Below are positions 8,414-13,574 of a DNA stretch of 64,000 nt, piece after piece. Source of the stretch: Helicobacter sp. 13S00401-1 (GTDB lineage: Bacteria; Campylobacterota; Campylobacteria; Campylobacterales; Helicobacteraceae); assembly GCF_002272925.1 (NCBI RefSeq), contig NZ_MLAR01000008.1:1-64000 (forward strand). The letters are read 5' to 3'. Both the position numbers and the translations under genes were made by a program. Below the pieces are notes generated by a model. It did not search any database. It saw only the letters and a list, made by a program, of their open reading frames with translations, and was not told the DNA's origin. Every line of letters begins with the position of its first letter. The first letter of the stretch is position 1.

Positions 8414-9556
8414 CTACTTAGAATCCATATGCATATCGTGCATATTTTTCATATCCATGTTTTTCATATCGGCATTATGAGAGTTATGGTCCATATGCAT
8501 GCCTTTCATTCCATCTTTAGAATCCATCTTCATATCACCCATATTTTGCATATCCATATGAGTAGAGTTAGGGCTCATATCTTTCATGTTTTGCATGTTT
8601 TGCATATCTTTATGCATATCCATATCTTTCATGCCATCTTTAGAATCCATATGCACAGATTCCATATTACCCATGTTATGAGACTTCATATCCATGTCTT
8701 GATGAGTGCTACCCTTCATATCGTCCATGTTCATATGGCCATGATCCATTTTCATACCATCCATTTTCATATCTTGCATTTTCATGCCGTGCATCCCATG
8801 ACCCATATCCATACCACCCATGCCATGCATCCCATGCATACCCTTCATGCCCATATGCATGCCTGGTAACATATACATATGTCCAGTCATCATCCCATAA
8901 CCCATAAATATATTACCAAGTCCAAAATAAAGCATTAAAAGCATGGAGATTCTTAAAAGCCAAGTGCTAAATCTCGCTCTAAATCCTCCCCTTATAAGAC
9001 TTCCTAAACTAGTTCCTAATAAAAACAAAGGTAAAAATGTCCCTATACCAAAAGCTATCATGCCTAAAATACTCATAGGTATGGAGTTAAAGCCAGCAGC
9101 AACTAAAGCAAAGGTATACACAAAGCCACAAGGCAAAAAGCCATTTAACACTCCAAGAACGTAGTAGCTATAAAAACTTTTAGACTGCAAGGCATACTTA
9201 AAAGCTCTTTTATACCAAGATGAGTTAGCAGATGGCGTGATATAGCCTAGTGCCTTAGGGTAAAAGTTAAAAAGCAAGGCTGTGATGATGATAAGGACAC
9301 CTATAACTATAAAAACTATGCCCCTATGAAAGTTATCTATAAAGCTTTTGCCAATTAGGGCAAAAATTATCCCCACTATGATATAAGACGTAAGCCTCCC
9401 TAAAAAATATACAAAGTTTCCTAAAGCTATCCTAGTTTTAGTGTTATCTATAGACTTAGCGGTATTAAGCCCTAAAACTATACCGCCACACATACCCACA
9501 CAGTGTCCCCACGCACCCAAAAAGGCCGCTATAAATATACCTAGTATTGCTTCCAT
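8414..9556 (-). CDS. TauE/UreH-type membrane protein with a long Met/His/Asp-rich C-terminal tail
   Basis: A 380-residue protein. Residues 1-220 form a six-helix membrane domain of the sulfite exporter TauE/SafE-UreH group, with the conserved WGHCVGMCGG motif near residue 17 and LNGFLPCGFVY near 137; such Cys-containing motifs are typical of metal or reductant transport relatives of DsbD/CcdA. From about 226 to the end the sequence is almost entirely Met, His, Asp, Gly and Lys in degenerate units such as MHGM, MKMD, MDMK and MHMD, with the longer unit MDSKDGMK seen twice. Such tails bind Cu(I)/Cu(II) in other proteins, so a copper-handling role is likely but inferred. The ATG at 9556 follows AAGGAAG. 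The tail's opposite strand is also open because ATG and CAT are reverse complements. Confidence 0.8.
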   Translation of the reverse strand: MEAILGIFIAAFLGAWGHCVGMCGGIVLGLNTAKSIDNTKTRIALGNFVYFLGRLTSYIIVGIIFALIGKSFIDNFHRGIVFIVIGVLIIITALLFNFYPKALGYITPSANSSWYKRAFKYALQSKSFYSYYVLGVLNGFLPCGFVYTFALVAAGFNSIPMSILGMIAFGIGTFLPLFLLGTSLGSLIRGGFRARFSTWLLRISMLLMLYFGLGNIFMGYGMMTGHMYMLPGMHMGMKGMHGMHGMGGMDMGHGMHGMKMQDMKMDGMKMDHGHMNMDDMKGSTHQDMDMKSHNMGNMESVHMDSKDGMKDMDMHKDMQNMQNMKDMSPNSTHMDMQNMGDMKMDSKDGMKGMHMDHNSHNADMKNMDMKNMHDMHMDSK

Positions 9557-9727
9557 CAACTTCCTTTAAGTTTAAAATTCTCTTTGCTTGATAAAAATCC
9601 ACCTGCAGCTATCCTACCTTTAAGCTTACTATCTAGAATCTTTTATTAACTTTAAGTCTCATATTTATTACATAGTGGAATTGTAGTTTCGAAGCTTTTT
9701 TAAGCATAAAAGGGCTTAGAAGGTTAT

Positions 9728-11216: not shown

Positions 11217-13574
11217 TTAAATATCTTCTTCATGTTTGCACTTTATGCAAACTGCTTTATTTTTACCTTTTTGGCGCATTAAGTAGCCACACTTTTCACA
11301 GTGCTTATTTATAGGCTTAGTGCTTGATATAAAGTTGCACTTTGGATAGTTAGAACAGCCATAAAACACACTCCTTGCACGCTTTGCTACTATCTCTCCA
11401 CCACACTCTGGACAAGCTACATCTAAGGCATCACTTTTTAAAGACTTGGTATTTTTGCACTTTGGATAGTTAGAGCATGCTAAAAACTCGCCATTTCTTC
11501 CTTGTTTTATCACCATAGGAGCGCCACACTTTTCGCATACTTCAGATGTAGGCGTGGCGTTAGTTTCGCTAGTATCTTTTTTATCTTTTTTTATATAGTG
11601 GCATTTTGGATAGTTAGAACAACCTACAAAATCGCCATACCTTCCACTACGTAAAACTAAAGGCTCCCCGCACTCTGGGCACATCTCACCAGTTAACTCA
11701 TGCTTTTTAAGTGAAGCTATATTTTTCTCTCCATCTTCAAGCTTAGCGCTAAACCCTTCATAAAAGTCCCAAAGCACTTCTTCCCAGTTAGTAGAATGGC
11801 TAGCTATAGAATCTAGTTTAGATTCTAAGGCTGCTGAAAAGTTAGCATCTACTATCTCATTGAAGTTATTTTCTAACATATCAGTCACAGTAAAGGCTAT
11901 CTCTTGAGTATGGATTTGCTTTTTTTCTATAGCTATATAGTTTCTATCACTTAGTAATTTTATAGTTGGCGCATAAGTGCTTGGACGACCTATGCCTAAA
12001 GATTCCATAGTTTTTATAAGGCTTGCTTCTGAGTACCTAGCTGGAGGCTCAGTAGTTTTAAGAGTTTCTTTTATAGGGTCAAAGTTTATAGCCTCACCTT
12101 CTTTATAGCTTGGTAAAAGCTTATCTTTATCTTCATTGCCCATAACTTTATAGAATCCTTCAAAGATTAAACTTCTTCCAGTAGTTTTAAAAGTAGCGCT
12201 TTCACTACTTGCTAGCACACTTAAAGTATCAAAGACTGCACTACTCATCTGCGTTGCTACAAAGCGATTAAAGATTAGTGTATAAAGCTTTAACTCCTCT
12301 TCTTTTAAGTAGTCTTTAGCTATGCCTGGCGTGAAATCTATATTAGTTGGACGTATGGCTTCGTGGGCTTCTTGGGCACCTTTTGCTTTTGAGACAAAGC
12401 TTCTTGGACTTGATACTAGATACTTATCGCCATACTTTTCTTTTATATAACCTCTCAAAGCACTCACTGCTTCTTTGGTTATATTTAAACTATCTGTTCT
12501 CATATAGGTTATAACGCCCTCTAAGCCCCTATTAGTCTGTACTCCTTCATAAAGCCTTTGGGCTATACTCATAGTCCTAGTTGGGCTAAAACCTAAAACA
12601 CTACTTGCACTTTGCTGAAGGCTAGAAGTCATAAAAGGTGGACTTGGGTTAGTAACCCTTTGCTTTTTTTCTATACTAGAGATTTTATAGCTTTCACTTC
12701 GCAGCACTGTTAATGCAGCATCTACTTTTTCTTTTTCTAAAAAGCTAAGCTTTTCTATCTTATCGCCTCTATAGTAGAGTAAGTCAAAGCTTATATCTTT
12801 ATCATAAGCATTTATTAGATAGTAGTCTATTGGCTTAAAGTCTCTTATCTCTTTTTCCCTATCAACTAATATTTTTAAAACACTACTTTGCACACGTCCT
12901 GCACTAAGCCCTCTGTTAATCTTTTTAGCCAAAAGGCCTGAAAGTTTAAAACCCACTATCCTATCAAGCAGTCTTCTTGCTTGCTGGGCATTAACTTTAT
13001 CCATATCTATATTGCGAGGGTTTTCTAGTGAGTTAGTTATAGCTTGCTTAGTTATCTCATGAAAGACTATGCGAGGGAAACCTTCTACATTTTCTTTTAA
13101 GGCCTCTATGATATGAAAGCCTATGGCCTCTCCTTCTCTATCTTCATCAGTTGCGATATAAGTAGTCTCAGCTATATCATGAAAGGCCTTTATCTTAGCA
13201 ACCACATCTTGATGATCTTTAGCTAACTCATAGGTTGGAGTAAAGCTATTAGGCTTAATTGTTATACCAAAGCGTGACTTGGGAAGATCTCTTATATGCC
13301 CTTTAGAAGCTATAACTTCATAGTCTTTACCTAGGAAATTTTTTATAGTTTTTGCCTTAGCTGGGGACTCTACGATGATAAGATTCTTTAAAGTTTTAAC
13401 CTTAGGTTTAGATGCAACACTAGATTTTGTGCTGGTTTCTTTTTTCTTAGTGCTAGTTTTAGTTGTGGTCTTAGTTACAGTTTTAGTAGTTTTGGCTTTA
13501 GTTGTAGCCTTGGTAGTTTTTGTATCTTTAGTGGTTGTAGAAGAATCTTTTGTCTTAGAGTTAGCATTTGGCAT
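11217..13574 (-). CDS. topA: DNA topoisomerase I with extra low-complexity N-terminus
   Basis: A 785-residue type IA topoisomerase that relaxes negative supercoils. The Toprim domain starts at residue 65 (LIIVESPAKAKTI) with DxDxE as ATDEDREGEAIG near 141-152; the catalytic tyrosine is Y357 in GVITYMRTDS. The C-terminus carries four Cys4 zinc-ribbon repeats (CPECGEPL, CEKCGAPM, CPECGGEI, CEKCGYLM) used for DNA binding. Residues 1-60 form an unusual Lys/Thr/Ser-rich tail of KTTK/TKTT units that I do not know from E. coli TopA and that resembles a disordered nucleic-acid-binding extension. ATG 13574 has AAGGAT close upstream. It is divergent from rodA. Confidence 0.97.
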   Translation of the reverse strand: MPNANSKTKDSSTTTKDTKTTKATTKAKTTKTVTKTTTKTSTKKKETSTKSSVASKPKVKTLKNLIIVESPAKAKTIKNFLGKDYEVIASKGHIRDLPKSRFGITIKPNSFTPTYELAKDHQDVVAKIKAFHDIAETTYIATDEDREGEAIGFHIIEALKENVEGFPRIVFHEITKQAITNSLENPRNIDMDKVNAQQARRLLDRIVGFKLSGLLAKKINRGLSAGRVQSSVLKILVDREKEIRDFKPIDYYLINAYDKDISFDLLYYRGDKIEKLSFLEKEKVDAALTVLRSESYKISSIEKKQRVTNPSPPFMTSSLQQSASSVLGFSPTRTMSIAQRLYEGVQTNRGLEGVITYMRTDSLNITKEAVSALRGYIKEKYGDKYLVSSPRSFVSKAKGAQEAHEAIRPTNIDFTPGIAKDYLKEEELKLYTLIFNRFVATQMSSAVFDTLSVLASSESATFKTTGRSLIFEGFYKVMGNEDKDKLLPSYKEGEAINFDPIKETLKTTEPPARYSEASLIKTMESLGIGRPSTYAPTIKLLSDRNYIAIEKKQIHTQEIAFTVTDMLENNFNEIVDANFSAALESKLDSIASHSTNWEEVLWDFYEGFSAKLEDGEKNIASLKKHELTGEMCPECGEPLVLRSGRYGDFVGCSNYPKCHYIKKDKKDTSETNATPTSEVCEKCGAPMVIKQGRNGEFLACSNYPKCKNTKSLKSDALDVACPECGGEIVAKRARSVFYGCSNYPKCNFISSTKPINKHCEKCGYLMRQKGKNKAVCIKCKHEEDI

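Follow-up and report, generated by a model that had tools for sequence, protein, structure and literature searches.

The extracellular part of the eukaryotic protein Ctr1 consists of disordered MxM/MxxM and His clusters beside a copper-moving core. The SilE/PcoE sponges, which are likewise disordered, His/Met-rich and periplasmic, bind several ions (PMC5008109), and the PCuAC protein AccA carries a C-terminal, disordered, copper-binding His/Met extension tied to copper-enzyme assembly (PMC13006917). Among six-helix membrane proteins, the transmembrane domain of the CcdA/DsbD type (e.g., HP0265) has cysteines in helices 1 and 4. Helicobacter pylori also encodes HP0861, which has been described as homologous to DsbD, with unusually arranged cysteines and no assigned role (PMC4491210), and which has been noted for its likeness to a Shewanella copper-tolerance annotation and for having diverged between strains from East Asia and those from elsewhere (PMC3561388). 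We recognize HP0861 as a DsbD_2 protein by gene order, as an H. pylori-like locus (L090) contains a DsbD_2 gene followed by gmhB-rfaD-hldE-gmhA, matching HP0861-HP0857 (order from PMC5531669), and the protein encoded at this locus carries a short His/Met tail. A study of cbb3 oxidase assembly in C. jejuni tested CcoG, CcoI, CcoS, PCuAC and Sco and mentions no DsbD or TauE protein (PMC8267372), and our literature search, outside which most subscription papers lay, found no experimental study of the DsbD_2 family in copper delivery.

Here we describe a gene of Helicobacter sp. 13S00401-1 located in the window, by which we mean the whole 64,000-nucleotide stretch of contig NZ_MLAR01000008.1 that was analyzed; the host genome is 1.84 Mb in size. 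The gene (8414..9556, minus strand) encodes a 380-residue protein in which, by ORF reading, Pfam and AlphaFold2, a six-helix DsbD_2 domain is followed by a Met/His/Asp tail. The family is already known, and in H. pylori has been described only as an uncharacterised DsbD homologue. Relative to the HP0861-type member, the tail is 154 residues long instead of about 29 and is dominated by Met and not by His. SilE/PcoE are separate soluble proteins, whereas this tail is fused to a membrane core and has no family match; the carrier of the AccA tail is a soluble cupredoxin-like chaperone and that tail spans about 16 residues, whereas the carrier here is a membrane protein. The core fold of Ctr1 is unrelated and its motifs are N-terminal.

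Two start codons are available to the open reading frame, and ATG 9556, which lies behind a Shine-Dalgarno-like AAAGGAAG (9560..9567, minus strand, read directly from the sequence), fits better than the alternative TTG 9559; the same codon is used in the sister species, Helicobacter sp. 11S02629-2. The neighbors of the gene in the window encode a ComEC-like protein, a glycosyltransferase-25 and a Helicobacter outer-membrane protein, with copper genes not among them, and in most helicobacters examined the DsbD_2 gene similarly sits beside ComEC-like and LPS genes and not beside copper genes.

The membrane core (residues 1–226) is modeled by AlphaFold2 as a six-helix domain with good confidence. 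Its DsbD_2 domain (PF13386; 8917..9538, minus strand) contains six predicted membrane helices with a pLDDT of about 80–95 and matches the Pfam profile at 129.8 bits against a cut-off of 24.9, covering positions 2–198 of 199. The earlier note had labeled the protein TauE/UreH-type, and public annotation applies the name sulfite exporter TauE/SafE to such proteins; the TauE profile is not among the Pfam matches at E up to 0.01, and we have replaced this label with DsbD_2. The six helices and the two cysteine motifs, WGHCVGMCGG and LPCGF, that the same note had read are both present. The first of these (GHCVGMCGG, 9482..9508, minus strand) lies in helix 1 and supplies H18, C19, M22 and C23 in ATG numbering, and the second (LPCGF, 9122..9136, minus strand) lies in helix 4 and supplies P142 and C143. 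In an alignment of 54 sequences, no variation is seen at the H, C, M or C of the HCxGMC motif or at the helix-4 PC. A Foldseek structure search against the PDB returned nothing significant.

The six helices and the cysteines in helices 1 and 4 are common to this protein and the CcdA/DsbD transmembrane domain, to which the sequence is distantly related, and the match to DsbD_TM (PF02683, CcdA) reaches 25.3 bits, just below the cut-off of 27.1. Membership of the same fold family and the paired cysteines together speak for a reading in which the core, in the manner of CcdA/DsbD, carries electrons that reduce copper or its chaperones in the periplasm for the assembly of the oxidase, while the tail keeps Cu(II)/Cu(I) close to the source of those electrons. 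Reduction of copper sites by TlpA-type proteins offers a known precedent (review, PMC7558416). On the other side, the HCxGMC and PC motifs bring additional His, Met and Cys and are unlike the CcdA pattern, and the host genome has a true CcdA in another gene (58.9 bits against the PF02683 cut-off of 27.1). The presence of that second gene also rules out that the window gene is the genome's CcdA, from which it differs further in its ligand tail and in the family's genomic link to cbb3 and copper.

The loops between the helices differ in charge, with a mean of 2.5, 5.4 and 2.5 Lys and Arg residues in loops 1, 3 and 5 as compared to 1.1 and 0.2 in loops 2 and 4. Positive charge is thus concentrated in loops 1, 3 and 5, which assigns them to the cytoplasm and gives a predicted topology of N-out and C-out, with both ends in the periplasm; by the positive-inside rule, the tail is thus placed on the periplasmic side. 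In one relative (L064, G027), very roughly 100 residues rich in Asp, Ser, Lys and Asn are inserted into the core's first cytoplasmic loop, and the protein ends in a short His tail.

The tail spans residues 227–380 (8417..8878, minus strand) and is in frame with the membrane domain, where the earlier note had placed it at about 150 residues. It is composed chiefly of Met (46 residues, 30%), Asp (23, 15%), Gly (18, 12%), His (17, 11%) and Lys (16, 10%), with zero Cys, Arg, Ile, Phe or Trp in its 154 residues; with an assumed background of 2.5%, the probability of 46 Met in 154 is about 6e-36. Met and His together make up 41%, slightly under the every second residue first claimed. The short units read in the first inspection recur as described, with MHGM and MKMD found three times each, and MDMK and MDSKDGMK twice each, the latter at residues 303–310 (8627..8650, minus strand) and 344–351 (8504..8527, minus strand). 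The spacing of the Met residues departs from that of shuffled tails: adjacent Met-Met pairs are absent (0 observed, 13.5 expected from shuffles), a spacing of 4 is depleted, and there are 15 MxM and 19 MxxM pairs, the latter exceeding shuffles (p 0.02). AlphaFold2 predicts the tail to be disordered, with a mean pLDDT per 10 residues of mostly 40–55, and no match in Pfam or NCBIfam covers it. On the opposite strand, an open frame of 146 codons (8429–8869, plus strand) is likewise His/Met-rich, since ATG has CAT as its reverse complement; it is a by-product and not evidence of a gene.

A comparison with relatives shows how the tail has changed. The sister species, which is the one other species of the window genus and was the sole match in the first contig search for relatives, has a 122-residue tail in which Met makes up 28%, Asp 15% and His 11.5%. 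In this species the tail is therefore neither absent nor unconserved, the outcome that the earlier note, together with a lack of metal binding, had named as refuting its proposal. The two cores are 88% identical in amino acids and differ at 56% of fourfold sites; therefore the common composition of the tails has been kept over a long divergence while their length and order changed. Individual Met positions appeared conserved in the tail alignment (0.81), but alignment-optimised shuffles come close (mean 0.65, maximum 0.84), and we have dropped this claim. Among 44 sampled relatives whose tails reach 5 residues or more, His, Met or Cys is present in the tail of 42, and these residues make up 26% of the pooled tails as compared to 7.7% of the cores. 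The tails typically end in sequences such as LLHCH, HHMAH or NMHHHHHH, and in this sample, outside the window genus, the median length is 13.5 and the longest tail has 46 residues. Only one Campylobacteraceae tail was read in all. The genus with the nearest cores has His-dominated tails of 11 to 82 residues. The window genus is set apart by tail length and by the preference for Met over His (Met is 0.71 of Met+His), and since short His/Met/Cys tails occur across the order, its tail is a family trait expanded to an extreme. The tail search also surfaced tandem-repeat proteins with SWDVSKVxNM-type units (L086, G441), which are unrelated to the tail.

Expansion itself is borne out by the lengths of 154 and 122 residues in the two species and the shorter tails elsewhere. 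The slippage first proposed to drive it is unsupported as a current process because the DNA units are divergent: 54-nt copies are 80% alike, and TRF reports only 2–3 copies of 9- and 15-nt units, a pattern that fits old or repeated duplication and not fresh slippage. A tail that is low in complexity, internally repeated and different in length between two species could be a by-product of DNA repeat expansion with no selected function. We consider this very unlikely, as the Met share stays at 28–30% despite the 56% fourfold divergence of the cores, and ligand tails are present family-wide.

The genomic distribution of the family relates it to the cbb3 oxidase. The core was found in 359 of 399 genomes of the order Campylobacterales and in 112 of 112 good-quality Helicobacteraceae genomes. 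Of the 399 genomes, 338 have both DsbD_2 and FixO/CcoO, 30 have neither and 31 are discordant (21 and 10 with a single gene), counts that are uncorrected for phylogeny and of a kind that any oxidase-linked gene would give. While the window gene itself is not beside cco genes, such an arrangement is seen in relatives. In two genomes of one family (G238 and G083), the gene order is OprC-like receptor, DsbD_2, ccoNOQP, and the TonB receptor of G238 matches OprC (PDB 6fok) with an E of 3e-32, its CPNRM stretch aligning with OprC's own. In a third lineage (G114), DsbD_2 lies 3.6 kb before ccoO with ccoNOQP nearby; a Phyllobacterium plasmid carries cbb3 subunits, DsbD_2 and a P-type ATPase in that order, and a Hymenobacter plasmid carries ccoN...ccoG-ccoH-DsbD_2. 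The host genome has genes for a cbb3 oxidase and for an HMA protein the size of CopZ, along with three large ORFs that contain HMA.

Several side observations accompany these loci. An OprC-like TonB receptor gene directly precedes DsbD_2 at three loci of one family of the order (L088, L089 and L102), with CPNRM read in L088 and L089 and the PDB comparison made for L088. A NosL-like protein is encoded directly before DsbD_2 in another genome (G041, L098:3367-3858), a weak match of 16.5 bits against a cut-off of 24 and a possible copper link, and an unannotated plasmid match came from Sinorhizobium fredii.

One paralogue (G048, L099:2782-4095) is a natural fusion in which an HMA domain and an extra helix precede the DsbD_2 core and a CupA-like domain follows it at the C-terminus; this last domain matches the pneumococcal copper chaperone CupA (4f2e/2mry) with an E of 4e-7 and occupies the place of the tail in the window protein. 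Genes for an FtrD-like protein and an HMA P-type ATPase lie downstream. As judged from gene content and order, the family context points to copper and, mostly, to the cbb3 oxidase. An OprC-like receptor upstream and a P-type ATPase alongside lend support to copper import, and an HMA domain at the cytoplasmic end with a CupA-like domain at the periplasmic end lends support to export. The FtrD-like redox protein adjoining this paralogue is a further point for electron transfer by the core; the HMA and CupA-like fusions suggest metal transfer instead. Electron transfer is a serious rival to metal movement, and the core could move electrons only, in the fashion of CcdA, but we judge the electron-carrier reading as a whole to be rather unlikely.

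Two further readings concern the metal held by the tail. Its composition is like that of SilE/PcoE-type sponges, which are disordered and bind via His and Met (PMC5008109), and it could be a sponge that detoxifies surplus copper or silver and has no part in supplying the oxidase. We find this improbable, as the presence of the family tracks the cbb3 oxidase, it neighbors genes for the oxidase and for import in several lineages, and tails of a few residues could hardly serve as a sink. The earlier note had proposed copper or nickel. Helicobacters use His-rich nickel proteins, and in several relatives His dominates the tail; that the present tail is a nickel sink resembling the His-rich proteins of the gastric species is nonetheless extremely improbable, given its 46 Met as compared to 17 His, the context of copper and cbb3 and a host genome that returned no urease match. 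A nickel/urease link was accordingly rejected. The proposal of a soft-metal tail stands well supported by inference from the periplasmic C-terminus, the tails of the family, the composition in the sister species and the context, with copper favored over nickel because of the lack of a urease match and the family context of cbb3, OprC-like receptors, HMA-type ATPases and a CupA-like domain.

We hypothesize that the protein is an inner-membrane copper-handling DsbD_2 protein, distinct from CcdA, that helps supply copper to cbb3 and whose periplasmic tail captures and buffers copper, and we think it probable that this is correct. The invariant Cys, His and Met of the core would probably bind Cu(I) and pass it through the membrane, or pass electrons that keep copper reduced. 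In the window genus, a short His/Met tail at the C-terminus would have lengthened to 154 residues, giving a disordered chain in which MxM and MxxM pairs are numerous and which may capture and buffer copper, mainly Cu(I), at the periplasmic mouth of the core in a manner similar to the outer part of Ctr1 or a SilE/PcoE sponge. This model rests on the sequence, the topology signal, the conservation of the tail in the sister species, the family-wide ligand tails and the genomic association with cbb3 and copper; copper as the metal, its binding by the tail, the direction of movement and the buffering role are what we infer. The gonococcal AccA His/Met tail binds copper tightly in vitro and yet is dispensable in cells (PMC13006917), and therefore the window tail may be a minor aid. 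If the model is true, it would provide a clear example of the graded evolution of a disordered metal-capture tail, and the tail offers a simple handle for testing the role of DsbD_2.

The distribution of known copper chaperones bears on this role. Neither PCuAC nor Sco was matched in the host genome, the sister genome or most of the Helicobacteraceae genomes searched, while in the order-wide search all Helicobacteraceae genomes carry a cbb3 oxidase gene, which makes the DsbD_2 family a concrete candidate for copper supply in this family. Tails with at least two ligand residues (His/Met/Cys) occur in 124 of 155 genomes without PCuAC as compared to 9 of 29 with it (Fisher p 4e-7), and within the Helicobacteraceae in 67 of 94 as compared to 0 of 11 (Fisher p 5e-6), with both traits held in common by related genomes. 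In one genus of 19, the sole PCuAC-bearing species has the fewest tail ligands. Outside the Helicobacteraceae, ligand tails are kept in 9 of 18 PCuAC-bearing genomes, and of 13 phylogenetically independent pairs six follow the trend, one runs against it and six are ties, which is not significant (p 0.125). For these two reasons, mutual exclusion of tail and PCuAC was downgraded from a firm rule, and the apparent trend is a lead and not a result. It is possible, though we put it forward only tentatively, that in bacteria without PCuAC and Sco the DsbD_2 protein replaces them in cbb3 copper supply via its periplasmic ligand tail, and that tail and chaperone swap over evolution.

Elsewhere in the window, a topoisomerase-like protein (11217-13574, minus strand) has a long, low-complexity N-terminus rich in Lys and Thr (TKTTKATTKAKTTKTV...).
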